Shown here piece after piece: positions 382 to 28,840 of a stretch of 46,833 bases of DNA (position 1 is its first letter; every line of letters starts with the position of its first letter). The translations under genes and the position numbers were made by a program. This stretch comes from an uncultured Chthonomonas sp. (GTDB taxonomy: Bacteria; Armatimonadota; Chthonomonadetes; Chthonomonadales; Chthonomonadaceae): assembly GCA_903859705.1 (NCBI GenBank), contig CAIONQ010000178.1, positions 1 to 46,833 on the forward strand, in the 5' to 3' direction. Below the pieces are notes generated by a model. It saw only the letters and a program-made list of their open reading frames with translations, ran no database searches and was not told the origin of the DNA.

Positions 382-1386
382 TTATCGGCGGGCCGCGGGC
401 TGTCGATAACTTCTCTCTTCCATATCGTTAGGATCGGTGGAAACGGGGCCATCTCGCCACAACCAGCGCATCATCTCTGGCAAAATCATGCCTCCAAACC
501 GCTGACCATGCAGGTTCATGCCCCAGGAGTAGTTTACGTCGTACCCCTTCTTCGTAAGAGCCTTCATCAAGCGTACATTCTGCAGAAACCAGTCCCAGGT
601 TTCGTCATAAACTCCATTGCGTACGCCGCGCAAATCGTTTCTGCCATCACATAGAAATACACGAATGGGCTTTTTGGGGCTCTTCAGTACACGATCGGTG
701 TACACATGGCCGCCGTGAATATTGGTGAACGAGCCAACGTTACTCAGAACTTTACGGAAGGCGTTGGGCCGTTCCCAGGCAACCATGAACGCTGCGATGG
801 CGCCGGAACTGGACCCGCCGATGCCGTGCATCTCGGGATCTTTGGAGATGTTGTACTCTTTGTACAGAGCAGGCATCAGTTCCTCGGTGATGATGCGGGC
901 ATACTTATCATCCGGCGTGTTGTACTCAACACCCCGATTTGTAAAGCCATCTCCCCAGCCCACCTGCGGCGAAGGCTCTTTTTGTTCTGGAGTGCGCCCC
1001 GGATTGATGAATACCCCCAGCATCACCGGGATCTCTCTGCGATTGATCAGGTTATCCATAACGTTCTGAGCGCGCATATCACCACGTTCGTCTTTAAACG
1101 CCTGCCCATCTTGAAACACCATTAACGCTGCCGCCTTGGCGGGGTCGTATTGAGCAGGCACATACACCCAGTAAGTATGCTGAGTTCCTGGGTATATGTT
1201 GCACTTTAGAGTGTAAGGCCCTTTGATTTCGCCCTTCGGAACGCCATCATGGGGAAACGAATCTGGCCCAAGCCGGTACTCACTATCCGGGTTGGGAGTT
1301 GTGGGCGTTTGTGCTGATGCACTCAGCCCTGCCAGGAGGCATGCTGCGCCAATTGCCGCAGAAAAAGTAAACGCACGATGCTTCAT
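382..1386 (-). CDS. secreted putative esterase (esterase D / enterochelin-esterase-like alpha/beta hydrolase)
   Basis: A 334-residue exported hydrolase. The N-terminus is a signal peptide (hydrophobic residues 8-25, cleavage near ASA/Q). The body resembles the putative esterase family that includes enterochelin esterase and feruloyl esterase-like domains. The nucleophile elbow G-S-S-S-G lies at 191-195 (Ser193); Asp247 or Asp251 and His293 are candidates for the rest of the triad. I chose the ATG at 1386 because GGAGG lies five bases before it; an in-frame ATG seven codons upstream includes that ribosome binding site. The sulfatase stop is 10 bases upstream, so it is the last gene of the operon and is followed by the terminator at 324-352. 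In this context it may remove acyl (acetyl or feruloyl) groups from the glycan that the sulfatases desulfate; that substrate is inference. Confidence 0.8.
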
Positions 1387-1396
1387 AGAACCTCCA

Positions 1397-3121: not shown

Positions 3122-4592
3122 CGGCTATCCTGCCAGGCTCGCGCACACCCACACCCTTGCGGTTGGTGAGTGCATCGCCCAGTTCGGTACGCGCCCGTTC
3201 TACCGATGCTAACAGCTTCTCCACAATTTCTGGATGCTCCGCTGAAACATCATGGCGCTGGCCAATATCGTTCTGTAAATCATACAGTTCGGGCTTTTCT
3301 AACTTTACCATAACATAGGGTACGGGGTTGCCACCGTGGCCACCGGGGCGGCCACCCATGCTGTGGAAAGTGTGTGGAAGCATTAGCGACCAGCGTCCAT
3401 CGGCAGACTTTACCGATTGTAACTGGTTCTGCTCATAGTAAAACCAGTAGGCATCATGAGGGTTGCGCGCTCCCTTTTTGCCAGCTATAATCGGCCAAAC
3501 ATCCAGCCCATCTATCTTATGGGCAGGCAACCTGGCACCCGTTAGTTGCGCGATGGTTGGAAACAGATCGATGGTCATCAACATATCGTTGGAGCGTGTG
3601 CCTGCCGGAATGTGCCCCGGCCATTTCATGATGCATGGTTCCCGCGTGCCGCCCTCCCAGGTGGTTCCCTTGCCTTCTCGTAACGGACCCGCCGAACCGG
3701 CATGATCGCCATACTGCAGCCATGGGCCATTATCGGAAGTAAAGACTAACAGAGTGTCTTTTTCCAGATCTAACCTCTTGAGTGTGGACATGATCTGCCC
3801 AACACTCCAATCGATCTCCTCTATAACATCTCCATAAAGTCCCTGCTTAGATTTGCCTTTGAACTTGCTGGTAACATGCAACGGCACATGCGGCATGCTG
3901 TGGGCGAGGTAGAAGAAGAACGGATGCTCTTTGTTACGCTCAATAAAGCTAACTGCACGCTCGGTGTACTGCGTGGTTAGCTGCTCCTGATCTTCATGCC
4001 CCAACCCTTCCTTCAGAACTTTGTCTCCTTCAATAAGCGGCAGTGGCGGGTAAGAACCTTTCGGCGCTGCCGGGTGGAATGGCCACATATCGTTAGAATA
4101 AGGCAGCCCCAGGTACTCATCGAAGCCATGGTGGGTCGGTAAGAATTGAGTTGGGCGCCCCAGATGCCACTTGCCCGCCATGCCGGTTGCATACCCCTTT
4201 TGCTTCAGCAACTGACCAAGTGTCATCTCCGTATCTGCTATGCCATGGGTTGCGGCCGGGCCAAGCGCCCCATGAATGCCTATTCGGTTAGAGTAACACC
4301 CGGTAAGTAGCCCAGCGCGTGATGCAGAGCAAACAGGCTGGCTAACATGGAAGTTGGTTAACATACGGCCTTCGGAGGCCAGCTTATCCAGGTTGGGCGT
4401 TTCGAAACCTTTTGCGCCAAAAACGCCCACATCGCCGTATCCCTGATCATCGGTAAAGATAACAACTATATTGGGCAGCCGCTTTTGCGCCGCTGCGTTA
4501 ACCGGCTCCGTGCCACTTTTGGAACTTGCAATAATGCCCGCTGCAATCGCAAACAGGCTAATAGCGGCTCGTTTTGGATATCTACGCTTCAT
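3063..4592 (-). CDS. exported arylsulfatase, Cys-type (CSASR motif)
   Basis: A 509-residue sulfatase (PF00884). N-terminal signal segment (residues 9-23), metal-binding TDD at 47-49, formylglycine motif C-S-A-S-R at 88-92 (Cys88, the accepted C-x-P/A-S-R form), GKWHLG further on and a C-terminal DNG metal-site motif. ATG 4592 is preceded by GGGGAG at 8 bases, and the ATG overlaps the stop of the FGE gene as ATGA, so the two are probably translationally coupled. Overall it resembles arylsulfatase A-like enzymes common in planctomycetes and marine Bacteroidetes polysaccharide loci. The natural substrate cannot be read from sequence; a sulfated polysaccharide is inferred from the neighbours. Confidence 0.9.
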   Translation of the reverse strand: MKRRYPKRAAISLFAIAAGIIASSKSGTEPVNAAAQKRLPNIVVIFTDDQGYGDVGVFGAKGFETPNLDKLASEGRMLTNFHVSQPVCSASRAGLLTGCYSNRIGIHGALGPAATHGIADTEMTLGQLLKQKGYATGMAGKWHLGRPTQFLPTHHGFDEYLGLPYSNDMWPFHPAAPKGSYPPLPLIEGDKVLKEGLGHEDQEQLTTQYTERAVSFIERNKEHPFFFYLAHSMPHVPLHVTSKFKGKSKQGLYGDVIEEIDWSVGQIMSTLKRLDLEKDTLLVFTSDNGPWLQYGDHAGSAGPLREGKGTTWEGGTREPCIMKWPGHIPAGTRSNDMLMTIDLFPTIAQLTGARLPAHKIDGLDVWPIIAGKKGARNPHDAYWFYYEQNQLQSVKSADGRWSLMLPHTFHSMGGRPGGHGGNPVPYVMVKLEKPELYDLQNDIGQRHDVSAEHPEIVEKLLASVERARTELGDALTNRKGVGVREPGRIAGAQKNGDKIAFRIGRYPVD

Positions 4593-5638
4593 TGTTTACT
4601 CCCCGATATCGGTTGAGCAGCGCGTGCATTAACCACACAGCGGAACCCGGTGTGGCTTGCGCCCGTATCGATTGCGCCTTTACCGCGCCCACCCACCATA
4701 AACCTGCAACAATACTGATCGGTACACAGGAAAGACCCACCCTTTTGCACTCGCTTTTTGCTGCCGGGCTCATCCGGATCGAAACAATCCACAGGGCCCT
4801 GAGGGTTGTCAGCAGGGCTATGTTCAAAGTAATCTGCCCGGTACCAGTCCGAACACCACTCCCACACATTCCCGGCCATATCATACAGGCCATAGCCGTT
4901 TGCCGGAAACTGCTTTACAGGTGAGGCGCCAGCATATCCATCCTCGGCAGTGTTCTTATCCGGGAAGTGCCCCTGAAACGTGTTTGCCATCCATTTCCCA
5001 TTGGGCCGAAAGGCATCGCCCCAGGCATATAGTTTTTGCTCCATCCCGCCGCGGGCAGCATACTCATACTCTGCCTCGGTTGGCAGGCGTTTGCCCGCCC
5101 ACTTTGCGAATGCCTCGGCATCCTGATAACACACCTGTACCACCGGGTAGCCATCTTTGCCCTGAATGGTGCTGCCTGGCCCGGTTGGGTGCTTCCAATC
5201 TGCGCCGGGAACGTAGCTCCACCACTGTGAGATATCGTTCAAAGGAACCGGGTGAGTTGGCGGGGTAAACACGAGGGAACCCGGCACCAGTTTGTCGGCG
5301 GGAACACCGGGAAACTGTGCAGGATCTGGCCGTTGTTCGGCCACCGTTACGTAGCCCGTTGCGGCAATGAATCGGGCAAACTGGGCATTGGTAACAGGCG
5401 TGGAATCGATGTAGTACGCATCTAGATGCACTACGTGCACCGGCCTGGCATCGGCAAACTGTGGGTAGTTGCTGCCCATGCGAAACGTGCCGGCAGGGAT
5501 CAATCGCATACCATCCAACCGTGCGGTGGGCGCAGCGGCGATTGTGCCCGGCTCTACTTTAGGTATCCCCTGCCTATGTGCCGGTGCGCAACCCTGTATG
5601 CAGAGGAGCGCACCTATCGTCAGCACTTTGGCCTGCAT
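4589..5638 (-). CDS. formylglycine-generating enzyme (FGE/SUMF1 family), predicted lipoprotein
   Basis: A 349-residue FGE-sulfatase domain protein (PF03781), which oxidises the sulfatase active-site Cys to formylglycine. The family core begins about residue 43 (MRLIPAGTFRMGS) and includes GKRLPTEAEYEYAARGG (182-198) and MAGNVWEWCSDWY (254-266). The pair that binds copper and acts in catalysis in true FGEs is present as C305-x4-C310 in SFLCTDQYC, followed by HTGFRC. Many FGE-like proteins lack these cysteines, so this looks like a working enzyme. The N-terminus ends in I-Q-G-C17, an acceptable lipobox, suggesting a membrane-anchored exported protein. The gene starts within TGATG shared with the DUF1501 stop and ends in ATGA shared with the sulfatase start. 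The context strongly supports modification of the two downstream Cys-type sulfatases. Confidence 0.88.
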   Translation of the reverse strand: MQAKVLTIGALLCIQGCAPAHRQGIPKVEPGTIAAAPTARLDGMRLIPAGTFRMGSNYPQFADARPVHVVHLDAYYIDSTPVTNAQFARFIAATGYVTVAEQRPDPAQFPGVPADKLVPGSLVFTPPTHPVPLNDISQWWSYVPGADWKHPTGPGSTIQGKDGYPVVQVCYQDAEAFAKWAGKRLPTEAEYEYAARGGMEQKLYAWGDAFRPNGKWMANTFQGHFPDKNTAEDGYAGASPVKQFPANGYGLYDMAGNVWEWCSDWYRADYFEHSPADNPQGPVDCFDPDEPGSKKRVQKGGSFLCTDQYCCRFMVGGRGKGAIDTGASHTGFRCVVNARAAQPISGSKQ

Positions 5639-11666: not shown

Positions 11667-12473
11667 ATGCCCAGGCAGATACCAATTGTGCGTTGGAAAG
11701 GCCCAGTATTTGAACAGGATGTAGACCTGACCGCAGATGAAGCTCCCCTTACAATTGTAGTAAACTCCGAGGCTGTAACCCTCACAATGCGCTCGCCAGG
11801 CAACGACAAGTACCTGGCGTTGGGACTGCTCTATGCCGAAGGATTAATACGATATGCAGAGGATATTGCCAGCACAGAGCTGATAGAGCACACCCGGCTT
11901 ATGGGTGAACCGGACAGAATATGCATAGAGTTGCGTGATGCCGCCGAGATACCACGATCAGGATGGGAACGCAGATTTCCATCCACATCCAGCTGCGGCG
12001 TATGCGGCAAAACGGATACGCAATCGCTAGATTGCCTGATAGCTCCCATTTCATCCCCGTTGCCAGAAGTTACGGCGAGTGTTTTGTATACCTTGCCCGG
12101 CAAGATGCGCGATGCACAGCGTGACTTTGGCACCACGGGCGGCCTGCATGCTGCAGCACTGTTTACCGATGCAGGGGAAATACTGTGCGTGCATGAAGAT
12201 ATCGGCCGACACAATGCCGTTGATAAGGTGATTGGAGAGGCATTGGAAAGAAAGTGCCTGCCACCGGTTGGAGCGGTGCTAATGACCAGTGGCCGATCGA
12301 GCTTTGAGATAATTCAGAAGGCGGCCGTCGCTGGCATCCCAATCGTTTGCGCTGTATCTGCGCCTTCCTCACTGGCAGTGAGGCTGGCTCATGACATGAA
12401 CATCACGCTTGTGGGATTTTTGAGGGGAGACACGATGAACGTTTACTCATGCCCATCTCGCATCGTGGTTTGA
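11667..12473 (+). CDS. fdhD: formate dehydrogenase accessory sulfurtransferase FdhD
   Basis: A 268-residue FdhD, the cytoplasmic protein that passes sulfur from a cysteine desulfurase to the bis-MGD cofactor of formate dehydrogenase. The reactive pair C110-G-V-C113 is present, as are the family blocks EAPLTIVVNSE and LALGLLYAEGLI near the N-terminus and TGGLHAAALF and HEDIGRHNAVDK towards the C-terminus. Length is usual. ATG 11667 is preceded by AAGG about 10 bases away. The gene is convergent with the FDH operon and overlaps its last gene by 31 bases (12443-12473), which links it physically and functionally to that enzyme. It is divergent from the rhomboid gene, with a 179-base gap that should hold both promoters. 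Confidence 0.93.
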   Translation: MPRQIPIVRWKGPVFEQDVDLTADEAPLTIVVNSEAVTLTMRSPGNDKYLALGLLYAEGLIRYAEDIASTELIEHTRLMGEPDRICIELRDAAEIPRSGWERRFPSTSSCGVCGKTDTQSLDCLIAPISSPLPEVTASVLYTLPGKMRDAQRDFGTTGGLHAAALFTDAGEILCVHEDIGRHNAVDKVIGEALERKCLPPVGAVLMTSGRSSFEIIQKAAVAGIPIVCAVSAPSSLAVRLAHDMNITLVGFLRGDTMNVYSCPSRIVV

Positions 12474-13375
12474 TCTACTGAATTTACTGGCTGTTCTTCG
12501 CCACGCTGATTAATAAACTCCCACCCAAACCTACCCTTTATGCAGAGGCTTCCGTGGGTTATTGAGTGATCTTGAGGGGATGTTGCCTTGATGATTCGAT
12601 TATCCTGAACAGTTAACTCCAGGTTGCAGCCCACCCCACAAAACGGGCAAACGGTGCGGGTAACCGTTTGATCTTCTGGCCGCCAATTTGCCTCATTCCG
12701 AAGTCTATACTCAGTAATTGGCATGAGTGCACCGGTGGGGCACACTGCAATACAGTTCCCGCAAAATACACACGCGCTCTCTGCCAGGGAAACGCTGAAT
12801 TCGGTGCTGACACTGGCACCAAAACCACGCCCTTTTATGGAGATTGCAAAGGTGTTTTGAGCATCCGTGCCGCATGCCTCCACGCATTTATAGCAGAGCA
12901 TGCACTTACTGTAATCCCGAACGAACAGCGGGTTATCTTCAATTACAGGCTCCGTAGAGCGAGCCACCGGTACTGCCCCACGCTCAAAGCGCTGTTCATC
13001 AACACCGTAAAAGTGCATCCAGGCACGTGTGTCCTCATTAACCAGAGACATATCCACCGCAGACACAAGCAGTTCGAGAACCAGTTTTCTGGCGAGGCGC
13101 ACGCGTGGACTATCTGTTTGAATGCGCATCCCGGCTTCCAGAAGCCTGGAACAGGATGGAACAAGGGTTCGATTGCCATCCAACTCTACTACGCACACAC
13201 GGCATACGCTCACTGGGGTTAGTGTTTCAAGGTAGCACAGCGTGGGTGTTTCTATGCCGTTAAGCCGCAGGGCGTGCAGAATGGTAGAGCCAGAGGGAGC
13301 AGAAAGCTCCCTGCCATCTGCCCCAAATGGGATCAGCTCCATTTTGGTGGTTGTTTCGAGTGAAAGATCAGCCAT
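12443..13375 (-). CDS. FDH electron-transfer subunit: NuoG-like N-terminus plus detached molybdopterin [4Fe-4S] domain
   Basis: A 310-residue protein equal to the N-terminal third of an NAD-dependent FDH alpha subunit (FdsA type). Order: [2Fe-2S] ferredoxin domain (C47, C58, C61, C75), NuoG-like linker (about 85-150), two [4Fe-4S] motifs (C158-x2-C-x2-C-x3-C and C202-x2-C-x2-C-x3-C), then the [4Fe-4S] domain normally beside the Mo/W bis-MGD cofactor (C243-P-F-C-G-V-G-C250, C278, K280). The protein ends at 310 where the usual alpha subunit would run into its catalytic domains; those are encoded at 15256-17199. ATG 13375 has GAGGG six bases upstream and overlaps the NuoEF stop by 8 bases. Role: carries electrons between the catalytic subunit and the NuoEF-like subunit in the cytoplasm. 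Confidence 0.88.
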   Translation of the reverse strand: MADLSLETTTKMELIPFGADGRELSAPSGSTILHALRLNGIETPTLCYLETLTPVSVCRVCVVELDGNRTLVPSCSRLLEAGMRIQTDSPRVRLARKLVLELLVSAVDMSLVNEDTRAWMHFYGVDEQRFERGAVPVARSTEPVIEDNPLFVRDYSKCMLCYKCVEACGTDAQNTFAISIKGRGFGASVSTEFSVSLAESACVFCGNCIAVCPTGALMPITEYRLRNEANWRPEDQTVTRTVCPFCGVGCNLELTVQDNRIIKATSPQDHSITHGSLCIKGRFGWEFINQRGEEQPVNSVDQTTMRDGHE

Positions 13376-15239
13376 TGTTGCCCTCACTCTTTAGCAGCTT
13401 TGCCCTGTGAATGCCGGACTGGATGGCACTGGATGCCGTTTGCCCGAGCCCACAGATTGAAGCATCGCACATTACCGAACCCAGCTGGTTCAACAGCTCT
13501 ATCTCTTCTTGCAGCGGCGTTTCGGTGTGAAGGATGCGTTTGAGCGCCTCCTCCTGCCGCACAGTACCTATTCTACACGGCACACATTGGCCGCAGGATT
13601 CATGACGGAAGAACTCCGCTATCCTCTTCAACACCGCCCGCATATCGGTACTGGTATCAAAAACCATTACCACGCCAGAACCCAGGGTTACATTGCCGGC
13701 CCTGGCCCCTTCTGAGGAGAGCTCGGTATCCAGATCCTCCAGACCAACAAACACCCCGGCTGCGCCACCAAGCAGTACGCAGCGCAGTTGTTTGCCCTGT
13801 GGCAATCCGCCAGCCGTTACTATTAGCTGCCGGAGCGTTATTCCATGAGGTGCTTCATATACCCCCGGTGCAACCACACTGCCAGAGAGGCTAAAGAGGC
13901 GTGTTCCAGGAGATTGCGCAGTACCCACTTCCCTGTAGGCATCCGCACCATGTTTAACAATCCACAGCGCATTGATAAGCGTTTCGACATTGTTAACGGC
14001 TGTAGGCTTACCGAAAAGCCCGGATACAGACGGGAATGGCGGCTTATTGCGAGGCTCTCCACGTTTGCCTTCTATTGAATTTAGCAGGGCTGTTTCTTCC
14101 CCGCATATGTAAGCGCCAGCGCCTACAGAGAGCTCGATATCAAAACCGATTTCATTTTCGGCACCAGCCGCGCCAATCAGCCCGGCAGTACGCACCTCTG
14201 CCAGAGCCTTGCGCAGGCGTGCCGCTGCCTCGGGATACTCTGCCCGAATATAAATCCAACCTTTTTTGGCCCCGCAGGCGTGGCCAGCAATGGCCATGGC
14301 TTCGATCAGGGAATAGGGGTTATTTTCGATGATGGTGCGATCTTTAAACGTCCCTGGTTCAGACTCATCCGCATTGCAAACCAGATAGCGAATGGGCGAT
14401 TTCTCCGCCAGCACGGCTCGCCACTTGCGCCCCGTTGGGAAGCCAGCGCCACCGCGCCCTGTAAGTCCAGACTTATCGATTTCATCAATAAGCTGAATTG
14501 GGGTGAATGTCCGAGCTCTTTTGAGGGCCTGGAAGCCACCATCCTCAAGATACAGATTAAGGTTGAGCGTAAATTTGATTAGTGTTGAGAGGCGCGGTGG
14601 ATCTGCGCCTGCAAGCCCGATAGATAGCAAGCGCGGGGCAGCATTTATTAGGCCAGTTTGGAGCAGGCTAATGGCTGTCTCAGTATTCGGACGCACCGCG
14701 TTGTCCAGATCAAGCCATGCAATAGTTCCGGCACTATTACCCGGAGTAGTAAAATAGGCAGCCGGGCTCTGCGCGCAAAGCCCCAGGCAGGGGCTTCGCT
14801 TCCATCGCGCACCATTGCAGGGCGTGTCCTCAGGGTAGCCGGCCACAGCAAGGCCGTTCAACAGGGGGTCTACCGTACCTGCCGCCCTGCAGCCAATATC
14901 ATCGCAGATATGCAGTGTTGCGACTGCATCTTCCGCAACCTCAAACAGCGAATAGAACGTTGCAGTGCCATACACCTCTGCCGCGGGCTGCCCAAGGCGC
15001 ATTGCAAGCCAGTTTATGGCTCCGGGAGTTACACATCCAAATTGGGACTGGATTGAATGCAAACCCGGCAAAACATATTGCCTTGCAACACGCACATCGG
15101 CAACAGAGCTGGTTCCCATGCGCATTTCAGCATCCGAGAGTGTGGCAAAGCTATCCGGAATGCCCTGCTCCCTCAGGAAGCCATCTATAGCGTTCTTCTC
15201 GTCTGGAGTTGGGCTCGCCTGTGTGTATTTCAAATCCAT
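13368..15239 (-). CDS. NuoE-NuoF fusion, NAD(H)-oxidising diaphorase subunit of formate dehydrogenase
   Basis: A 623-residue natural fusion of the two diaphorase subunits found as FdsG+FdsB in soluble FDH and NuoE+NuoF in complex I. The N-terminal thioredoxin-like part carries the [2Fe-2S] ligands C112, C117, C151 and C155. The C-terminal part has the FMN/NADH-binding sequence GRGGAGFPTGRKW (261-273), a second glycine-rich block (SVGAGAYICGEETALL), the SLBB region, and the [4Fe-4S] ligands C549, C552, C555 and C596. It exchanges electrons between NAD(H) and the iron-sulfur chain. ATG 15239 is 16 bases after the catalytic-subunit stop, with GGGGAG upstream. Its position between the two halves of the alpha subunit is unusual and argues that all three gene products form one cytoplasmic NAD-linked complex. 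Confidence 0.92.
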   Translation of the reverse strand: MDLKYTQASPTPDEKNAIDGFLREQGIPDSFATLSDAEMRMGTSSVADVRVARQYVLPGLHSIQSQFGCVTPGAINWLAMRLGQPAAEVYGTATFYSLFEVAEDAVATLHICDDIGCRAAGTVDPLLNGLAVAGYPEDTPCNGARWKRSPCLGLCAQSPAAYFTTPGNSAGTIAWLDLDNAVRPNTETAISLLQTGLINAAPRLLSIGLAGADPPRLSTLIKFTLNLNLYLEDGGFQALKRARTFTPIQLIDEIDKSGLTGRGGAGFPTGRKWRAVLAEKSPIRYLVCNADESEPGTFKDRTIIENNPYSLIEAMAIAGHACGAKKGWIYIRAEYPEAAARLRKALAEVRTAGLIGAAGAENEIGFDIELSVGAGAYICGEETALLNSIEGKRGEPRNKPPFPSVSGLFGKPTAVNNVETLINALWIVKHGADAYREVGTAQSPGTRLFSLSGSVVAPGVYEAPHGITLRQLIVTAGGLPQGKQLRCVLLGGAAGVFVGLEDLDTELSSEGARAGNVTLGSGVVMVFDTSTDMRAVLKRIAEFFRHESCGQCVPCRIGTVRQEEALKRILHTETPLQEEIELLNQLGSVMCDASICGLGQTASSAIQSGIHRAKLLKSEGNNG

Positions 15240-15255: not shown

Positions 15256-17199
15256 CTATTCGCGCGTCATAACCGGTTCAACACGCACGGCGGCCGCCTT
15301 ATATTCCGATGTACCGCTGCGCGGGTCTGCCGCTTCATTCGTAAGGATATTAACGTTGATCTCATCCGGGAAGTGGAACGTCATGAACACCAGGCCAGAC
15401 CTCAGCCCGGGATCCAGCCGGATGGGAGCAACAATATAACCACGCCTGGATGTGATGCGCACAGCGTCTCCCTCCAATAGCCCCATAGCTGCTGCATCGG
15501 TGGGAGAGATATCCAGTACTTCCCCCAGCCTGATTGGGGATTGGAGAGCACCAGTTTGCACACCTGTGTTGTACGAATCCAGCCTTCGGCCAGTGGTTAG
15601 TACAAAAGGATACTCTGCGTTAACTTCGTCCAACGGAGGCTCATCGAGAACAATCGAGAAAGGGGCGGAAGCGCCTCTCTTGTCTGGGTCTGTTTCCCAG
15701 AGTCTGCCATGCAGGAATGACGACCCAGGATGCACCTCTTCCGGGCATGGCCACGCAATGCCACCAAGCTCCTCGAGGCGTGCATAACTCATACCTTTGT
15801 GCATAGGTGATAGAGACCGCAGCTCATTCCAGATCTGTTCTGCTGATGGTTGTCGCCAGTCTTTCCCCAGCCTGCCCGCAAGATCGCATAGTATTTCGAC
15901 ATCGCTCTTCACGCCCGGAGGCGGATCCAGCGCTTTGCGTGTTCTCTGAACACGGCGTTCGGAGTTAGTAACCGTGCCTTCCGTTTCGCACCAGGCAGCG
16001 CTTGCTGGCAGCACAACATGTGCCAGTTCTGCTGTTCTGGTAAGAAACATGTCTTGAACGCACAGGAAATCCAATCCGCCAAGCAGCCTCACGGTGTGCC
16101 CGGTATCCGCCTCGGATTGCGCCGGATTTTCACCGATGCAATAGAGCGTTCTCAGCTCGCCGCGCTGCATTGCATTCAGCATCTGGGTAAGGTGCCATCC
16201 ATATTTTGGCTGAATGGGCACACCCCAGGCTGCCTCAAACCGCAGCCGGGCGGCATCGTTCTTCTCGATATCCTGAAAGCCGGGAAGCTTGTTTGGCAGG
16301 GCGCCCATATCGCCCCCGCCCTGAACGTTGTTTTGGCCACGGAGTGGCGTAAGGCCAGCACCCCATCTGCCCACCTGCCCAGTCAATAGCGAGAGGTTGA
16401 TAAGGCTAAGCACATTATCTACCGCGTTGTGATGCTCAGTAATGCCCAGGGTCCAGCACAGCTGGGCACGCTCGGCTCTTGCATAGGCATGGGCAAGATC
16501 TCTAATCGCCTCGGCAGGTACGCCGGTTACGGCCTCCCCTTTTTCAAGTGTCCAATCGGCAACGCTTTCGGCATACTGTTCAAAGCCGGTGGTTGCCCTG
16601 AGTATAAATTCTGTATTGATTAGGCCGGAGGCAATGATCTCGCGGGCAACGGTGTTGCTGAGGGCAATGTCTGAGCCGATATTAAGCCCAAGCCACCTAT
16701 CTGCCCACTTTGCAGTAGACGTGCGCCTGGGATCCACGACGTAGAGTTTTGCGCCGCGATTTATAGCTTTTAGAACGTGATGAAAGAAGATCGGGTGCGC
16801 CTCCCTGGCGTTGGATCCCCACATCACAATCACATCTGCATCTTCCGCCTCACGGTACGAGCTTGTGCTTCCACCTGCTCCAAAAATGGTCGCCAGACCG
16901 ACGACACTGGGAGCGTGTCAAGTGCGGTTGCAGCTATCGATATTGTTGGTTAGCATTACCTGCCTTGCAAACTTGCCGGCAAGATAGTTCATCTCGTTGG
17001 TAGCCTTAGAGCAGCTAAAAATCCCAAATGCACCCACACCTTGATTGCGTGCCTTAGCAAACGCCTCTGCAGTGAGCGAGAGTGCCTCCTCCCAGGTGGC
17101 CGGGCTGAGTTTGCCATTGCGGCGAACCAGCGGGGTTGTTAGCCGCTGCAATGGCGCTTTCTGTTCGCGCCGATTGCGTCGTTCGTATCCTGCTTGCAT
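15256..17199 (-). CDS. selenocysteine-containing formate dehydrogenase catalytic subunit (bis-MGD), TGA read as Sec
   Basis: About 647 residues if the TGA at 16918-16920 is read as selenocysteine (residue 94 from ATG 17199). The frame is open on both sides: NNIDSCNRT, then TGA, then HAPSVVGL, exactly where E. coli FdhF has its Sec followed by the conserved active-site His. Beyond it lie MWGSNAREAHP (Mo/W cofactor binding), SERRVQRTRKA (the conserved active-site Arg region) and a C-terminal molybdopterin dinucleotide-binding domain (FHFPDEINVNILT, SGTSEYK). The N-terminal [4Fe-4S] domain is missing and encoded at 12443-13375; this protein begins just after that junction (RLTTPLVRRNGKL). AAGGGAGGTGAT lies upstream; ATG 17208 or GTG 17211 are alternative starts. 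The product interconverts formate and CO2. Automatic annotation would split it into a 97- and a 525-codon gene. Confidence 0.88.
16889..16920 (-). promoter_or_regulatory. bacterial SECIS element with Sec UGA codon
   Basis: On the minus strand, UGA (16920-16918) is followed after 12 bases by GUCGUC (16905-16900), loop GGUCU (16899-16895) and GGCGAC (16894-16889). This makes a 6-bp stem with one G-U pair. The E. coli fdhF SECIS, as I recall it, has the same GGUCU in its apical loop at the same distance of 18 bases after UGA; that G-U is the part recognised by SelB. The hairpin lies inside the coding frame without interrupting it. This is strong support for selenocysteine insertion rather than a nonsense mutation. 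Confidence 0.82.
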
Positions 17200-17280
17200 T
17201 CTGATCATCACCTCCCTTACAAAAGTATGTGTTGGCGCAGTGACTGCAACACTTGCATGCCCGCACCATCATACAGAGTA

Positions 17281-17298
17281 TTGCCCCGAATTGGGCAA
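17281..17298. promoter_or_regulatory. inverted repeat in the FDH/metalloprotease divergent promoter region
   Basis: TTGCCC and GGGCAA (17281-17286 and 17293-17298) form perfect 6-base arms around CGAATT. The site is about 80 bases upstream of the FDH start and 125 bases upstream of the divergent metalloprotease start. On the minus strand, TTGCCC could be a -35 with TATGAT about 19 bases downstream. It could be a regulator-binding dyad or a chance palindrome. Confidence 0.3.
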
Positions 17299-17422
17299 AT
17301 TCTCCTTCCACGGAATTGATGAGTGTGCACAGTCCACAGCAATTGAAGGATTGGCGGTAAACTCTGTGACGGAAGCTCGCTGCGAACCAGACAGGTATGC
17401 TGGATGCCGCGACGGAGGCGGT

Positions 17423-20326
17423 ATGTACTACTGGTATCGACGATTTGTATTGTCTGTAGTTCTGTGTATGCCTGGCATTGTTGCGGCGCAAGCGAACGCC
17501 GCCCCCCCTGCAAAGCCTGCAGACATCGGCTTTTGCAGGCCTTACACCTGGTTATCTGGTGGGTGGGTAGCGGCCCCACGGATGCCGCTTGCCGGAGACA
17601 TTAATGGAGACGGTTATGCAGATTTTCTGGATGCATCTCCTGCTGACAAAATCATCGATGTTTCAATCAATGGCAAAGGGCTAAAACCACTGCGCGGATA
17701 CAGGTTAGTAAATGGCCTGCCGGAGACGATTGCAGCCTACACGTTTGCACATGCAGGCGGTAAGGCTCTGGACATTGCCGTGCTGGGCGAACAGGGCGCC
17801 GTTTCCCTAGTTAAGAGCCAGGGCGCTGGTGCCTACGATGCACCGGTAACGGTTGCGCACGTGACTGCAGGCGCGAGCAAGAGCTGGATATTCTCCGGGC
17901 CAGCTGGTAAAGATGGTGCAGAGTTACTCATTGTAGTAAGCGCAGACGGAAAGGGCACTCTGCTTTCAACATCGGGAACTGTTGCAGGCGAGCTTAAACT
18001 AGAAGGTGGCATTAGTGCGGCATCGGCAGGCTCTGCTGGCAAACAGGGCGTCTATGTCGCAATCAGGCATGGCAGCAAGGCATCTGTTTACAAAATTAGC
18101 GGTGGAAAATCCCACCGAATCACTACTCTTGATGCCCCGGCTGCCGCAGAAGCCATTGCCATGGGAGACATCAATGGCGATGGTTCGGCAGATCTGTTAT
18201 GCAACGGCAAGGTGTATCTCGCTCCCGCGTTCAAGGCATCAGTTATCGTTGCTGGCTGGGATAAGCTCAAAGCCCCAGTTTCAGCCATGCTTGCCGATAT
18301 TGCGGGACATGGCCGTGCTGATTTGATTGTGCAGCACCTGGGTTCGGACTACTACGGCTCGTTTGGAACCGACCGAGACGTGTACATCACGTATTTTAAG
18401 AGCGACCTGGACTGGGATTGCGACGGCCTAACCAATGAGGAAGAGGCAAAGATTGGCAGCGACCCGTTAGACAGATCCACCAGCCATGACGGATTGCTGG
18501 ATGGCTGGAAAGAGCATGGTTTTGCGGGCATAGACCTTAAGAAAATGGGGGCTTCCCCACTGCATAAGGATGTGTTTGTGCTTAATCAACGGATTGAGGG
18601 CATTAACCAGGAATCCGTTGAACGCTACATGCAAACAAACATAGCCCCATTCTTTGCCAGGCTTCCCTACAAAAACCTGGATGGTACGAGCGGCTTTGCA
18701 CTGCATTGGATTGACCAGCCAGCTTTATCTACCGCACAGCATTCAGGCAAGCCATGGCAGCAAATAGCTGGCGAACAGATGCCTGCCGACAAGATTGGAC
18801 TGTGTCACTGGATGCTTGTAAATGGCCTTGGCGGTGGCGGACAGTCTAATCAACTGGCCGATGCTGGGTCTTCTGGCATGGGATCCTGGTCTCACGAATT
18901 TGGGCACCAGCTTGGCCTTTCTCATACAGGAAAGTGGGCTACATGGTCCCCCACATACACCAGCCTGATGAACTACAGTTACAGCTATCAGTTTGATGGC
19001 CGTGGCGACAGGGTGCACTTTAGCAATGGGGAACTTGCAGGGCTTATCCTTAACGAAACACATCTTCCAGGCAAAGTGCCATATCCCATAGAGAAACTGC
19101 AGTTCTTGGCAAATCGACCGTACCATTTTCACCTGAAGGCGGCAGACGCGAACTCTACCTATATTGATTGGGGATGGAGTGGAGTGTTCTCGGATAGAAC
19201 TGTAAGGGCAAACATCACCTATGGATACGGTGTTGGCGCGGGCGAGCGTATGCAACCATCAGGCAAGCAATCGTTTAACTACAATGGGCCATACGAGCTT
19301 ATGACGGACAAAGAGGCAGCACTTTGCGAGCATAAAGGCAAGCTCTACATGGCCACTGCTTCGCGGGATCCGCTTGCAGTAGAAGCTCCTCGGCCGCATG
19401 AAACGAGGCTCGTGCTTCAGACACATGTCGGTAAAAACAGCTGGAGTGAGCCAGTTCTTACGGCCTCACGTGTTACAGGTGAGCCCTATCTGGTGAGCGA
19501 TAATGAGAGCCTTTACGTGCTATACCCAACCGATGCAGGCGTCGCAGTGCGGTTTGGCTCACCCGATGCACTGAGCCCAGAGCGGATAATTCCCGGCACG
19601 GCAGGCGCAGCCGTGAGTGCCGTTTACTGGCACGGCAAGGTGTGGCTCATATTATGGCGCGGTGCTGTAGCCGATGTTGCTGTGATGCCGTATGATCCTT
19701 CGAAGAGCGAAGCCGGGCCGGAAGTTAGCCTTAAATATCGCTCAACCTTGCCGCCCGGGCCAGCGATCGATACTCTGAAAGATCAGTTGCTGCTCGGCGG
19801 TGCTGCCCCTCTTGGCAACCAGAACCGAAGGTGGCAAATTCGGCGATTTACGGAGGCAGGCTCGAAGTTTACTGCAGCCGGTGAAGCCTGGGTTGGCGGC
19901 CCCAACACTTCCTGGGCAGGATCCAGGCGCCCAAGTGTGATATTCAGCAGCAGCCCGGATGCTGGCCCAAATGGCAAGATCTACTTTATCGCCGCCGGAA
20001 ACGCAAATTCGGAAAGAGATGCAGTTGGATTCTATATAGCACAGACCATTGCCTACAAGGAGACCAACGATGGTTGGCTACTGTGGCGATACTATGACGA
20101 GTGGACCAATACCCGCAGCGGTGTTTCGGCAGCCTGGTTTAACAACGACATAACCGTTGCTACAACGTGGGCCAGCGGTACCGCTGGCGGCGATGGCGGT
20201 GTGTTTGTAGGCGAGCACGGCCTCGCCATATCTGATGTGGATATGGGCGATTTCGACGATATAGCGTTAATGGCAAACTATGGTATGTCCCGATCCATTG
20301 GCGCATTCGCAAAGATGCCCCAGTAA
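17423..20326 (+). CDS. secreted metzincin-type metalloprotease with FG-GAP repeats
   Basis: A 967-residue exported protein. A signal peptide (hydrophobic 8-20, cleavage near ANA) is followed by an FG-GAP/VCBS-like N-terminal half with calcium-binding DINGDG loops at about 58 and 249 and a related loop at about 292. A thrombospondin-type-3-like Asp-rich segment follows (DWDCDGLTNEEE and DPLDRSTSHDG, about 330-355). The catalytic domain contains the metzincin zinc site H491-E-F-G-H-Q-L-G-L-S-H501 and a Met-turn with Met516 (SLMNYS). The C-terminal about 350 residues are probably beta-propeller-like. I start at ATG 17423, with GGAGG four bases upstream; the open frame extends upstream into the FDH gene without support. 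It stands alone between divergent FDH and convergent GH127 genes. Substrate unknown; a role in extracellular protein or glycoprotein degradation is likely. Confidence 0.82.
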   Translation: MYYWYRRFVLSVVLCMPGIVAAQANAAPPAKPADIGFCRPYTWLSGGWVAAPRMPLAGDINGDGYADFLDASPADKIIDVSINGKGLKPLRGYRLVNGLPETIAAYTFAHAGGKALDIAVLGEQGAVSLVKSQGAGAYDAPVTVAHVTAGASKSWIFSGPAGKDGAELLIVVSADGKGTLLSTSGTVAGELKLEGGISAASAGSAGKQGVYVAIRHGSKASVYKISGGKSHRITTLDAPAAAEAIAMGDINGDGSADLLCNGKVYLAPAFKASVIVAGWDKLKAPVSAMLADIAGHGRADLIVQHLGSDYYGSFGTDRDVYITYFKSDLDWDCDGLTNEEEAKIGSDPLDRSTSHDGLLDGWKEHGFAGIDLKKMGASPLHKDVFVLNQRIEGINQESVERYMQTNIAPFFARLPYKNLDGTSGFALHWIDQPALSTAQHSGKPWQQIAGEQMPADKIGLCHWMLVNGLGGGGQSNQLADAGSSGMGSWSHEFGHQLGLSHTGKWATWSPTYTSLMNYSYSYQFDGRGDRVHFSNGELAGLILNETHLPGKVPYPIEKLQFLANRPYHFHLKAADANSTYIDWGWSGVFSDRTVRANITYGYGVGAGERMQPSGKQSFNYNGPYELMTDKEAALCEHKGKLYMATASRDPLAVEAPRPHETRLVLQTHVGKNSWSEPVLTASRVTGEPYLVSDNESLYVLYPTDAGVAVRFGSPDALSPERIIPGTAGAAVSAVYWHGKVWLILWRGAVADVAVMPYDPSKSEAGPEVSLKYRSTLPPGPAIDTLKDQLLLGGAAPLGNQNRRWQIRRFTEAGSKFTAAGEAWVGGPNTSWAGSRRPSVIFSSSPDAGPNGKIYFIAAGNANSERDAVGFYIAQTIAYKETNDGWLLWRYYDEWTNTRSGVSAAWFNNDITVATTWASGTAGGDGGVFVGEHGLAISDVDMGDFDDIALMANYGMSRSIGAFAKMPQ

Positions 20327-20371
20327 TGCAAATTCCCCCGGATGGCTGCAGCCATCCGGGGGAATTTGCAT
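20326..20371. terminator. bidirectional hairpin terminator
   Basis: Perfect 20-21 bp arms (20326-20346 and 20351-20371) around TGCA, with GGATGGC at the stem top and AAATT/AATTT at its foot. It starts at the last base of the metalloprotease stop codon and lies 14 bases from the stop of the convergent glycosidase, so it can serve both genes. The T-tracts are short and inside the stem. Confidence 0.75.
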
Positions 20372-20384
20372 ACACTCTGATCGG

Positions 20385-22847
20385 CTAATCTATATGCCAG
20401 CTCAGCACTCCTGATGAGAACTCTGGCTGCAGTTGAACCTTTACTCTCAGGGCTTTGGTGTTTATTGCCGGAAAATCAACCTTGTTCATAGTATTTGCGG
20501 CGCACCCTAACGGTGGGCACCCTGGTACAACCTGCCACTCACCGGCGTTCAAGTACTCTAACTGCGCACTTATTGGCACTCGGCACCTTCCATGGCCTGT
20601 ATCATCAAACCAGTAGATACGGCAATTATGTACCCTTGTGCTGGCTTCAAAGTCCATCTGGATCCACTCACTACTGCCCTTATGATCCCACCACGTAAAT
20701 CGAGGAATGGTTTCATCACTGGAGGAAGCCGGAGTAACATCCTGCTGAACGGACTTGAGACTATCGTGAACAAAGGATGCCGATATGCGGGGCCACGAGC
20801 GATCAGTGCGCCATCGATTTGCATAGGGTGATGTGCTGACCACCGGGAATGTGGTTATGCGCAATCGGGCAGCACCCATGGGCACCAGTTCCAGTGTCTC
20901 CTCCGGTTCTTTACTAAGGGCCGGGCTCTTCTGCAGCAGTCCCACTACCGCATCCTGATCCGCCACCCACCCAGGAAGTCGCCTTGCCTTCACCCGAACC
21001 GCTATCGGGGCAGTGGCCTGCGTGAAGGGCATATTCGTTGGGAATATGGACCTGTGGATAATCACCATCTCTTTCGCTGGGTCGGCACCGGCAAGCACCA
21101 GGCCGTAGTTCCACGGCGAAGCGGGTCGCACTTCCATAGCGGGCCATTTGTCCGGTCCCTTAACCATTTTCCACTTTTCGGTAATGTTCAGAGAAAAGCC
21201 AACTGGCCCGAAAGATACCGAGGCTGCATTTCCCTGGGCTGCCCAGCGCTTTACCGCGATCTGCATGGGCAGGTGTAGGGTTACCCTGTCTCCCTGTTTC
21301 CACTTGCGATCCACCTTAACATAAGAACCGCTGCGCGCCCCCTTAACAACCTCACTACCGTTTACCTTCACAGAGGCACCAGCACACCATCCTGGGATCC
21401 TCAGGTACAGGGGAAATGCTACCGGCTGCGCAGGGTTTATTCGAAACGCAACCACGTCTCCAAACGGATATTGAGTGGCCTCTTCCAGAGTTACTTTCTG
21501 GTTGTTAGCAACCGTTGTGGTTACGGTAGAGGGAGCGTAAAGTGAGGCGCAAATACCTTTATCCGAGGTGCCAAGCCAGAGTTCTTCGGCATAGTACGGC
21601 CACCCCATCCCCAGATTATGTGGGCAACAGCGGTAGTTATGGATGCCTGGCATAAACGCATCCATGGGCATATCCCCGTTAGCAAACTGGCCATCGTGTT
21701 TGCCGTCAACCGTAAGCTGAATGCCGTTGGCAGAAGTTATGTAATGCGTGCCCAGGTGTTTAGGATCCAGTGATGCAGGATAGGAATTGAACGCAATATC
21801 CTCACATCTATCTGCCCAGCTCACATCCGAGGTTATGCGAGTCATCATCTCAAACGTGTGCATGTACTCCACCCAACCGCAGGTTTCAAAGCCCTGTCTT
21901 GGGTCGGCATAGCCCGGGCGGCAGTTTTCATCGCCGGCAAAACCTCCGCCAGGAAACTGGCCGTATTTCCGCATTATTTCATCATAATCCCTGTAGGTTG
22001 CTGCCAGGTGGCGTTTTTCACCGGATTGCTGCCAGAATTCCGCGGGCTCTCGGATACCCTGTGAGAGGTTTACGTTATGCCAGGTCGGGATACCATCGGT
22101 GTAGTTGGCAGAGTGCGTATGCATCTTCACACCTAGATCCAACAGCCATTTCTGGCCAGTTCGATTGTATAGCCAGTACACCGTATCCAGATTATCGCCC
22201 CACCGAACAGCACCCCACCCCCGCTTATAAACTTCTGGGGGCATAGAGTCTTGAAACTTGAAGAACTTAAGAAGGAAAGGAATAACGCGTGGATCGTGCG
22301 TGTACTCTTCGTAACTGCGTAGAGCGTTCAGTAGAGGCATGTGCGGCCACAGATCTGGCCCACCCTCCAGGGAGGTTCGCGCGGCTTCCGGCCCAAACCA
22401 TCCATCTGGACGTTGGCTCTTGATAACGCCATCCAACCAGTGCATTGCCCTGGCAGTAATATGCGGGTCTTTAAGCACATAACCCAGATCACCGTACCCA
22501 CGCAGCCAGTAGGTTAGCTCTTCCCAACCTGCGGTTCCCTTTGGATCTACCCATCCGTTGTTTTCATACTTCAGGTAGTCGGAGAGTTCTGGCATGTGGC
22601 CTACCAACCCATCAGCATCCAGTTGAAGCTGTTTCCGAAGCCACCCCCCCGGCCGAATACTCCCAACCGGCAATCGGGTAAAAGCCGTGGATCGCAACGG
22701 CGCGCGGTTTGGGTACCAGCCGGAGCGCGGACCAACAGGCGGACCGCTGACACTTGTGGCAACGCCTTTTTGCGCGTCGGCAAAAGTGCTGCCAACAAGC
22801 AAGAGGGCAGTCACAACAGTTGGGAGCAGGAACTTAACGATACTCAT
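20385..22847 (-). CDS. GH127-like beta-L-arabinofuranosidase (DUF1680) with C-terminal discoidin-like domain
   Basis: An 820-residue exported glycosidase. A signal peptide (about 5-25) precedes a DUF1680/GH127-type (alpha/alpha)6 barrel. The zinc site described for Bifidobacterium HypBA1 (Glu, Cys, Cys, Cys) is visible as E321-T-C323 in GFETCGWVE and C407-C408 in NYRCCPHN. The barrel is followed by beta-sandwich regions, and the last about 110 residues (from FTWWDHKGSSEWIQMDF) look like an F5/8-type carbohydrate-binding domain. ATG 22847 is chosen over ATG 22877 because it starts directly at the signal peptide and has AGGAAGG upstream, though at a long distance. The likely activity is release of beta-L-arabinofuranose from plant glycans or arabinogalactan proteins; GH127, GH142 and GH146 members are hard to separate by eye. 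The gene appears monocistronic. Confidence 0.87.
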   Translation of the reverse strand: MSIVKFLLPTVVTALLLVGSTFADAQKGVATSVSGPPVGPRSGWYPNRAPLRSTAFTRLPVGSIRPGGWLRKQLQLDADGLVGHMPELSDYLKYENNGWVDPKGTAGWEELTYWLRGYGDLGYVLKDPHITARAMHWLDGVIKSQRPDGWFGPEAARTSLEGGPDLWPHMPLLNALRSYEEYTHDPRVIPFLLKFFKFQDSMPPEVYKRGWGAVRWGDNLDTVYWLYNRTGQKWLLDLGVKMHTHSANYTDGIPTWHNVNLSQGIREPAEFWQQSGEKRHLAATYRDYDEIMRKYGQFPGGGFAGDENCRPGYADPRQGFETCGWVEYMHTFEMMTRITSDVSWADRCEDIAFNSYPASLDPKHLGTHYITSANGIQLTVDGKHDGQFANGDMPMDAFMPGIHNYRCCPHNLGMGWPYYAEELWLGTSDKGICASLYAPSTVTTTVANNQKVTLEEATQYPFGDVVAFRINPAQPVAFPLYLRIPGWCAGASVKVNGSEVVKGARSGSYVKVDRKWKQGDRVTLHLPMQIAVKRWAAQGNAASVSFGPVGFSLNITEKWKMVKGPDKWPAMEVRPASPWNYGLVLAGADPAKEMVIIHRSIFPTNMPFTQATAPIAVRVKARRLPGWVADQDAVVGLLQKSPALSKEPEETLELVPMGAARLRITTFPVVSTSPYANRWRTDRSWPRISASFVHDSLKSVQQDVTPASSSDETIPRFTWWDHKGSSEWIQMDFEASTRVHNCRIYWFDDTGHGRCRVPISAQLEYLNAGEWQVVPGCPPLGCAANTMNKVDFPAINTKALRVKVQLQPEFSSGVLSWHID

Positions 22848-26261: not shown

Positions 26262-27293
26262 TTAGCAAGCCCTGGAGCGTTTTCGGCGGCGGCGAACTGC
26301 ACCTGCAGCGGTTGCCAGGCCGGCAAACATGGCCCAGGTCCCCGGCTCTGGCGCAGCCTCTTGAAACCAGAACCCATAGGTGTTGGTACTGTTGCCATTT
26401 TGCGCAAGATAGTATCCAACAAAAACTGGGTTTGGATTGAATATATTGTTTGAGAGCGCCATACCAGTAATGATTGTTGAGTAACCCTTTGGATTGTCTA
26501 GAGTAAGGAACGAGCCCGTGGCGATGTCATAAACAAGGCCGTGGCTAAGGCCACCCGAATCCACATAGGTACCAACGATATCATTACCAAAAATGCCATA
26601 CAGAACCGTTCCCTGTGCGGCAAGTGGATCATCAACCGTGGTGTACTGACCGGTAAAAATATCGTAAATCACACCGTGGTCAATCCCATCAGAGCCAGTG
26701 TAAGAACCTACCGCTGTGTTGCCAGATATCGCATTAAGGAAAGTATTGTTGGCACTGGCGAGAGCATCCGGGGCGTCGACCTGTGTCACTGCACTGGTTG
26801 TAAGGTCCATAACAAAGCTGCTTGTGGCAGGTGTACCAAAGAACAGCGGGTTAAAGATGTCTGTAGTTTGCCCAATAACGTATTTGCCCGAGATCCCGGT
26901 AACCTCAGTGCCATCCACCCCAGCCGCAAGGTCAATCGTATTGTAAGAACTGCCATCAAACACAAACCCATGTTGGGTGCCAGAGGCATCAAAGTAGGAG
27001 CCTGCTCTGTTTACGCCATCAAGCCCAGTAACAATAGTGCCATTTACAGCAAGGGTTGCATCATAAATACCGTACATATGCGTGGTTAGGTCGTAACTAA
27101 ACCCATGGCTCATGCCAAATGGATCGAGGTACGTGCCAACTACCTGACTGCCCTGGATAGAGTAAGCCTGTGTAACTCCATCAGCACCAGGTATAGCGAG
27201 ATCTCGAAATTGGGCTTGTGCTTCCTTTGTGCAAAAGCACATAGGAGCAGTAATAGCAAGTAAGGCAGCAACAGGTGCATGCGACCCAAACAT
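26262..27293 (-). CDS. HAF-repeat protein with PEP-CTERM sorting signal (paralogue of the 27719-28840 gene)
   Basis: A 343-residue exported surface protein. A hydrophobic signal (about 8-22, cleavage near AQA/Q) is followed by about five repeats of a 45-60 residue unit, roughly G-x-VVGTY-x-D-x-x-G-x-SHGF-x-YD then T-x-D-x-P, which is the HAF-type repeat. The C-terminus is a PEP-CTERM anchor: A-P-E-P-G-T-W-A, a hydrophobic stretch and RRRRKRS. Such signals direct processing by exosortase and attachment to the envelope or exopolysaccharide. The start is uncertain: ATG 27293 is used, but TTG 27323 would give a better charged n-region (KKQGLSLR) and GTG 27404 is also in frame; none has a clear ribosome binding site. 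It lies directly downstream of its paralogue; the terminator between them suggests separate transcripts. Confidence 0.8.
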   Translation of the reverse strand: MFGSHAPVAALLAITAPMCFCTKEAQAQFRDLAIPGADGVTQAYSIQGSQVVGTYLDPFGMSHGFSYDLTTHMYGIYDATLAVNGTIVTGLDGVNRAGSYFDASGTQHGFVFDGSSYNTIDLAAGVDGTEVTGISGKYVIGQTTDIFNPLFFGTPATSSFVMDLTTSAVTQVDAPDALASANNTFLNAISGNTAVGSYTGSDGIDHGVIYDIFTGQYTTVDDPLAAQGTVLYGIFGNDIVGTYVDSGGLSHGLVYDIATGSFLTLDNPKGYSTIITGMALSNNIFNPNPVFVGYYLAQNGNSTNTYGFWFQEAAPEPGTWAMFAGLATAAGAVRRRRKRSRAC

Positions 27294-27658
27294 AGATCGC
27301 AACGATAAACCCTGTTTTTTCAATATTCTAAATTTAGGCAAATCTACACAAAGCACGGTACAGCACCTCCAGAAGCATCGCGCCGACAGAATATTAGAAC
27401 GCACGAGAATTGTAATTGTTCAGACATAAAACTAGCGTCTGAACAAACAGTGTCGCTCTCACCATCATGGGAAGACTGTAGGTAGCAAACAGAAATATAA
27501 CGGCAACCTGGCCGTAATTGGCACACAGCAAAAGATGTGCCATCAATCATCAAAAAGAACTATTAGTATTGTACAGCACACATACCCAATCGCGCAACCA
27601 AACGTACGCGTACGCACCACGGATTTAAAAATATATTATAAGGTGAAATAAAAAGAGA
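27294..27658. other. AT-rich intergenic region between the PEP-CTERM paralogues
   Basis: No gene is supported here apart from a possible short N-terminal extension of the downstream PEP-CTERM gene (to 27404). The stretch holds the promoter region for that gene on the minus strand, the palindrome at 27603-27614 and a very AT-rich block at about 27622-27655, next to the terminator of the upstream paralogue. Confidence 0.45.
27603..27614. repeat. 12-bp palindrome CGTACGCGTACG
   Basis: A perfect palindrome that is also a tandem repeat of CGTACG, located about 310 bases upstream of the downstream PEP-CTERM start and next to an AT-rich block. Its composition differs from the surroundings. It could be an operator or a methylation target; no function is shown. 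Confidence 0.4.
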
Positions 27659-27688
27659 CTGCCACCACAAACAGTTCAGTGGTGGCAG
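27659..27688 (-). terminator. intrinsic terminator of the upstream PEP-CTERM gene
   Basis: Ten-base arms CTGCCACCAC (27659-27668) and its complement (27679-27688) around a 10-nt loop. On the minus strand the stem is followed by TCTCTTTTTATTTC, a proper T-rich tail. It lies 30 bases after the stop at 27719. Confidence 0.85.
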
Positions 27689-27718
27689 CCTCGTTGAAGT
27701 ATTGCCGGTAACTAGTAC

Positions 27719-28840
27719 TTATTTGCGGCGCTTGCGGCGCAATACCAGCCCTGCAGTCAGTAAGCCCCCGAAAAGAGCATACGAGCCTGGCTCAGGCGTT
27801 ACTGCCTGATACCAGAATGCGTTGTAATTGCCATATCGGTCAATTGTGTAGCCAGTGAGTATCGGATCTAGATTGTGGCTATCCAGGCTTGCTGCGGCAC
27901 CGGTGAAGTACGCGGTGCTTGCATCACCAGGCGAAACAAGTGTTTCGTAGGTCTGCGTAAGCATGTTGTAAGTGAAGCCATAAGATGCTCCGCCTAAAAC
28001 ATATTCACCTACGGCATAGTCGCCATATATTCCGGTAAGCGTTGTACCGCCATCCGCAAGCGGATTGTCTATAGTGGTAAAGGCTACACCCGAAATATCA
28101 TAGAGCAACCCATGCTCGGCACCAGAAACGTCGAAGTAGTTTCCAACTGCCGTGGTGCCATAAATACCGTCTATGTGTGTTCCACCAGAACCGCTACCCA
28201 GAGCATCAACCAGCGTATCTGGCTGGTCTATCTCTGTAAACGTGTTTGTGTTGGTATCAAAGATAAAGCCGCTGGCATTGGGAACACCGTTTAAGAATGG
28301 CGAGAATGTATCCCGATAGTAAGTACCAACCACCAGGTTACCACTTACGCCCGTTGCCTCTGTCTTATCCCAACCAAACGAACCAGGTGAACCGAAGTAC
28401 ACAGTTGAGTCGTAGTTGGCCGCATCTAATGTAGTGTATGTTAATCCCTTGCGGAAATACGCTAATGCACTTGCGCTGCCGAGGCCGAATTCACCAACAT
28501 TATATGTTCCGACAACAGTCCCGCCGGAGGTCCCGTTCGCTGTGGTGCCAGAAGTAGCCCCAGTTACATCAAAGCTACCTGTTACATATGAACGTAGGTC
28601 ATAAGTATAGCCGTGCTGAACACCACTGAAATCCGTGTACGAACCGACAGCGATCTTACCATCGACACCGTTCAAGGAAAACTGTTGGGTTGTATCTGCC
28701 CCAAGGCGTGATGCAGCGGAAGTGAGAAAGTGATACTGAGCGTCTGCACGCGTACCCTGGATCAGGGCAAGCGAGATAGCGAGCACACCGGATACTCGGC
28801 AGAGACGAACTGGAAACGAGCCAGCAATTCGATACGTCAT
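27719..28840 (-). CDS. HAF-repeat protein with PEP-CTERM sorting signal
   Basis: A 373-residue exported surface protein paralogous to the product of 26262-27293. A signal peptide (about 14-34, cleavage near ADA/Q) is followed by repeats of the type VGSYTDFSGVQHGYTYD, VVGTY and AVGNYFDVSGAEHGLLYD, each with an alternating T-x-D-x-P segment (FTTIDNPLADGGTTLTGI). It closes with a PEP-CTERM signal, T-P-E-P-G-S-Y-A, a hydrophobic stretch and RRKRRK. ATG 28840 has GAGG six bases upstream. HAF repeats are probably beta-rich, perhaps a propeller; ligand and function are unknown. Anchoring would require an exosortase encoded elsewhere. Confidence 0.88.
   Translation of the reverse strand: MTYRIAGSFPVRLCRVSGVLAISLALIQGTRADAQYHFLTSAASRLGADTTQQFSLNGVDGKIAVGSYTDFSGVQHGYTYDLRSYVTGSFDVTGATSGTTANGTSGGTVVGTYNVGEFGLGSASALAYFRKGLTYTTLDAANYDSTVYFGSPGSFGWDKTEATGVSGNLVVGTYYRDTFSPFLNGVPNASGFIFDTNTNTFTEIDQPDTLVDALGSGSGGTHIDGIYGTTAVGNYFDVSGAEHGLLYDISGVAFTTIDNPLADGGTTLTGIYGDYAVGEYVLGGASYGFTYNMLTQTYETLVSPGDASTAYFTGAAASLDSHNLDPILTGYTIDRYGNYNAFWYQAVTPEPGSYALFGGLLTAGLVLRRKRRK

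Follow-up and report, generated by a model that had tools for sequence, protein, structure and literature searches.

Formylmethanofuran dehydrogenase, a molybdopterin enzyme related to the formate dehydrogenases (FDHs), is made as two chains, FwdB and FwdD, the separate piece being the C-terminal cofactor-binding domain and not the Fe4S4 domain. In FdsABG-type FDHs, the metal ligand of FdsA is cysteine, whereas selenocysteine (Sec) is predicted for the enzyme studied here. FDH alpha subunits and SelD are the most widespread bacterial selenoproteins (PMC5029168). In those parts of PMC7176365 that concern it, FDH3 of Actinomycetospora chiangmaiensis DSM 45062 is described as having three subunits, FdhA3, FdhB3 and FdhC3 (640, 614 and 316 aa), with a predicted Sec catalytic subunit, and is assigned as cytoplasmic and NAD+-dependent; Sec machinery is present in the genome, FDH3 was detected by proteomics and formate removal was selenium-dependent.

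A formate dehydrogenase frame across an in-frame TGA

We analysed a window of 46,833 nucleotides from an uncultured Chthonomonas sp. (Armatimonadota); it forms contig 178 in an assembly of 6.2 Mb and 96% completeness. It contains the following features.

17207–17216, minus strand: Shine–Dalgarno-like GGGAGGTGAT, 7 bases before ATG 17199, read from the sequence
15256–17199, minus strand: FDH catalytic subunit, with a read-through translation of 647 aa including predicted Sec94
16918–16920, minus strand: in-frame TGA, predicted Sec codon 94, aligning with E. coli FdhF Sec140
16889–16905, minus strand: predicted SECIS hairpin of 6 bp, loop GGUCU (16899–16895), recognized by conservation and offset
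13368–15239, minus strand: fused NuoE–NuoF-like (HoxE–HoxF-like) NAD-reducing diaphorase subunit, 623 aa (Pfam 2Fe-2S_thioredx, Complex1_51K, SLBB and NADH_4Fe-4S)
12443–13387, minus strand: HoxU/NuoG-N-like iron-sulfur subunit, up to 314 aa (Pfam Fer2_4, Fer4 and Molybdop_Fe4S4)
11667–12473, plus strand: FdhD, sulfurtransferase for FDH cofactor activation (Pfam PF02634, E 1.2e-64; TIGR00129 above cut-off)

On the minus strand, the reading frame is open on either side of the TGA at 16920–16918 and its remainder is intact, giving the single FDH catalytic frame that a first-pass annotation of this DNA had claimed. Plain open reading frame (ORF) calling yielded products of 97 aa (17211–16918) and 525 aa (16833–15256), the same two genes that had been expected from ordinary gene finding. 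The likely start codon is ATG 17199, which leaves 93 codons before the TGA. Pfam domains on the catalytic chain were Molybdopterin (PF00384, E 2.4e-62) and the dinucleotide-binding Molydop_binding (PF01568, E 9.5e-26), and its PDB matches were HDCR FdhF (7qv7) and E. coli FdhH (1aa6). Sec94, His95 and Arg287 align with FdhF Sec140, His141 and Arg333, so that the chain combines both domains of a bis-MGD FDH with the active-site Sec/Cys, His and Arg. The alignment upholds the earlier placing of the TGA at the Sec or Cys ligand, directly before the conserved active-site His; an in-frame UGA where homologues have Sec or Cys is one hallmark of a selenoprotein gene.

A long plus-strand ORF at 17045–20326 extends over the 5′ end of the FDH gene. 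It has a signal-peptide-like MYYWYRRFVLSVVL near 17423, where its true start probably lies; with that start the two genes are divergent and do not overlap. Elsewhere in the window, a row of genes at 382–5638 (minus strand) encodes an esterase, two sulfatases and a formylglycine-generating-enzyme-like protein; it is probably a unit for sulfated polysaccharides that includes its own maturation factor. Two adjacent, paralogue-like secreted proteins at 26262–28840 (minus strand) carry sorting-like motifs at their C-termini (PEPGTWAMFAG and PEPGSYALFGG), each with a basic tail behind it; no Pfam match was found for the second of the pair.

Hairpin conservation and selenocysteine machinery

The hairpin GUCGUC-GGUCU-GGCGAC begins 12 bases past the TGA, with its loop 18 bases past it. 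In the E. coli K-12 fdhF sequence, which we fetched, GGTCT starts equally far from the TGA (codon 140), at base 22 counting from its T, bearing out the 6-bp, GGUCU-looped, fdhF-like element proposed in the first-pass annotation; a hairpin of this kind just 3′ of the UGA, with a conserved loop, is a second hallmark of selenoprotein genes. The 6-bp hairpin by itself has a folding energy of −6.8 kcal/mol. ViennaRNA preferred other pairings for the isolated 41-base stretch (z −1.05), and the hairpin was recovered when the first 12 bases were omitted as ribosome-covered. Rfam SECIS_3 (RF01989) aligned at the right place over the full model length with 13.9 bits (E 1.1; gathering threshold, 63 bits), and the entire window held no Rfam match above gathering.

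A scan of bacterial genomes gave 80 loci at 64–69% identity, to which the phylum of the window added more, a few of them possibly from the same genomes. Residue 94 was encoded by TGA in 50 of 86 related loci and by TGC or TGT in the remaining 36, which are Cys-codon relatives of the kind that the earlier reading had raised. All six pairs together with the loop GGTCT were found in every TGA locus (50/50), whereas all six pairs were found in none of the Cys loci (0/36) and the loop sequence alone survived in only three of these. Among 116 sites of the TGA set at which the amino acid is invariant and the codon degenerate, the only fixed codons were Gly101 GGT and Leu102 CTG, which are both loop codons of the hairpin. 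GGT accounted for 13.5% of the other Gly codons in this set, and the codon of the same Gly varied freely in the Cys set. Pair 18/30 covaries, but the tree shows no more than about three such changes, and the argument is therefore carried by the Sec/Cys contrast and the codon invariance. The SECIS hairpin is exactly what separates the two forms of this family, present with Sec and missing with Cys, and they offer a clean natural comparison for Sec loss.

The nearest named relatives were from Armatimonadota, including Chthonomonadaceae. In our tree, the split-type proteins (those whose Fe4S4 domain lies on another chain, as described below) grouped in one clade, apart from the single-chain enzymes of Armatimonadota. 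By parsimony, Sec would be ancestral in the split clade and would have been replaced by Cys once, within Actinomycetes, where Allonocardiopsis, which has Sec, stands beside the Cys clade; the tree was quick and had some long branches, and its fine branching is unreliable. In two of the single-chain Armatimonadota FDHs (L107 and L109), Cys (TGT) is accompanied by a correctly spaced SECIS-like hairpin with GGTCT, intact or almost so, apparently a remnant from before a recent TGA-to-TGT conversion. Four others (L110, L112, L114 and L129) have both TGA and hairpin.

The genome encodes a complete decoding system, for which a search of the genome had been suggested: profile searches detected SelA (467 bits), SelB (387 bits) and SelD (351 bits), each above its curated cut-off, and a tRNA-Sec with anticodon TCA (63.9 bits; cut-off, 47). 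The selA, selD and tRNA-Sec genes lie side by side on contig 149. There, selD (20127–21071) is itself interrupted by an in-frame TGA, within CAG-U-ASK, and its product is likely to be a selenoprotein, which brings the candidates in this genome to two or more. The first-pass annotation had tied a pseudogene or sequencing error to a genome lacking selB and tRNA-Sec; with tRNA-Sec, selA, selB and a TGA-bearing selD all present, this ground for doubt falls away.

Among relatives, the TGA was present in all six Armatimonadota genomes that have the split-type catalytic gene, and SelB was above cut-off in all six. Of 34 TGA-form genomes, 29 yielded a tRNA-Sec, compared with 6 of 16 Cys-form genomes (Fisher p 0.0019); the five TGA-form genomes in which none was detected are all titled as metagenome-assembled genomes. 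SelB exceeded its curated cut-off in 141 of 291 Armatimonadota genomes, and Sec use therefore seems common in the phylum. In the open-licence literature (subscription journals being mostly uncovered), we found no paper on Sec use in Armatimonadota, co-mentions being incidental.

The Fe4S4 domain on the iron-sulfur subunit

The catalytic chain has no N-terminal Fe4S4 domain: the FDH alpha profile TIGR01591 aligned from position 52 only, scoring 638.6 against a cut-off of 666. Positions 1–51 of the same profile matched residues 245–295 of the iron-sulfur subunit, where Molybdop_Fe4S4 (residues 241–293, E 2.5e-20) forms the C-terminal end. The Fe4S4 motif at 247–285 includes the Lys284 of a CxKG sequence, to which FdhF Lys44 maps, so the residues that make up the FdhF active site are here spread over two chains. 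The gene for the iron-sulfur subunit is the second one downstream of the catalytic gene, with the fused diaphorase gene between them. Both the domain encoded elsewhere in the operon and the wide spread of the enzyme family had been overlooked in the first-pass annotation.

This arrangement is not peculiar to the window. The order catalytic, fused NuoE–NuoF, iron-sulfur was found in 69 split-type loci and likewise in the window, and the Fe4S4 domain ended the iron-sulfur ORF in all 68 split-type loci with a readable ORF. In none of the split-type loci checked did the catalytic frame carry an Fe4S4 motif further upstream, whereas single-chain relatives in Armatimonadota do have one there. Actinomycetota, Acidobacteriota and other groups conserve both the split and the changed order. 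As in FdsABG-type enzymes, NuoE-, NuoF- and NuoG-N/HoxU-like modules lie in one operon; in place of the single alpha chain of about 900–1,000 aa of that type, two chains were found in the window and in the split-clade loci checked. With its Fe4S4 domain on a separate iron-sulfur protein, the enzyme corresponds to an FdsA-type alpha chain that has been cut once, with the halves encoded in reversed order. The fdhD gene is convergent with the iron-sulfur gene and overlaps its 3′ end; an unrefined FdhD pattern matched near only 5 of the 80 other loci, a figure to which we attach no weight.

Proposed enzyme, alternatives and known systems

Together, these results identify what is by every computational test a genuine Sec FDH, ordinary in kind and apparently unreported in Armatimonadota, and the machinery, the Sec140 alignment and the hairpin conservation support the original claim of a Sec FDH hidden by a TGA. 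We are highly confident in the reading as a whole, namely an NAD-linked three-subunit enzyme in which UGA 94 is read as Sec and the Fe4S4 cluster is provided in trans. The three minus-strand genes would form a cytoplasmic Mo- or W-bis-MGD FDH that reduces NAD+ with electrons from formate or runs in reverse. SelB and tRNA-Sec would decode UGA 94, directed by the GGUCU hairpin 12 bases downstream, and Sec94 would coordinate the metal through its selenium. The HoxU-like subunit would contribute the cofactor-proximal Fe4S4 cluster and the Lys that lies between cluster and cofactor (as in FdhF), and its 2Fe-2S and 4Fe-4S clusters would relay electrons to the fused NuoE–NuoF diaphorase with its FMN. 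FdhD, encoded on the opposite strand, may supply sulfur for cofactor activation. If the cluster and Lys are provided in this way, the Sec active site would be complete only after assembly with the diaphorase module.

We considered whether the gene might be a pseudogene of a Cys-type FDH, its TGA being due to a recent nonsense mutation or to a sequencing error. That ordinary gene finding yields two separate ORFs is what such a pseudogene would show, but the remaining frame is intact, the same TGA recurs in 50 loci of several phyla with its hairpin perfectly conserved, every Armatimonadota genome with the gene has it, and the genome of the window has complete Sec machinery; the conservation of TGA and hairpin rules this explanation out. 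Alternatively, the UGA could be a regulated stop, mostly terminating and decoded as Sec only when selenium is available, with a functional short product or switch. Termination and Sec insertion compete in selenoprotein genes in general, but the 93-residue stretch is only the start of the molybdopterin domain, with no separate function visible, and we consider such a switch very improbable.

A further alternative concerns the cluster: the catalytic subunit may work without a proximal Fe4S4 domain, the Molybdop_Fe4S4 domain of the iron-sulfur subunit being a mere relay that is not packed against the cofactor. The two pieces are indeed separate polypeptides, but the domain fits exactly the profile positions 1–51 that the catalytic chain lacks, keeps the CxKG Lys and is retained wherever the iron-sulfur ORF was readable, so that we regard a relay-only role as unlikely, if less so than a regulated stop. 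We prefer provision of the cluster and Lys in trans, and lean towards the broader view of a cross-phylum FDH family whose catalytic subunit, elsewhere usually a single chain, is naturally split just after the Fe4S4 domain. If true, this would be the first recognized split of its kind in the FDH enzyme family; no paper describing one was found in the open-licence literature, with subscription journals mostly uncovered.

A gene that annotation would break into two fragments is read as one selenoenzyme, which documents predicted Sec use in Armatimonadota. The family, widespread and with a predicted naturally split active site, deserves a structural look, and its split modules may be handy for engineering CO2/formate enzymes.

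Compared with known systems, the enzyme shares with E. coli FdhF (FDH-H) the aligned Sec, the adjacent His, the Arg of P(L/V)RGQNN and the offset of the GGUCU loop, but in FdhF the Fe4S4 domain is in the same chain rather than on another protein, and the partner subunits differ. It resembles FdsABG (for example, of Rhodobacter capsulatus; PDB 6tg9) in having a HoxU-like Fe-S region and Fe4S4, catalytic, NuoE-like and NuoF-like modules; the 958 residues of FdsA form a single chain, whereas here a break follows the Fe4S4 domain, the gene for the N-terminal half comes last, and the NuoE and NuoF parts are joined in one protein. The subunit sizes (647, 623 and 314 aa), the predicted Sec subunit, the cytoplasmic NAD+-linked assignment and the Sec machinery resemble those of A. 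chiangmaiensis FDH3, which belongs to another phylum and whose description, in the parts that concern its subunits, passes over a missing Fe4S4 domain (PMC7176365). Subunit sizes, and other actinobacterial loci of the same anatomy, place the enzyme putatively in the FDH3 family, and it would be a new Armatimonadota representative of an already known type.
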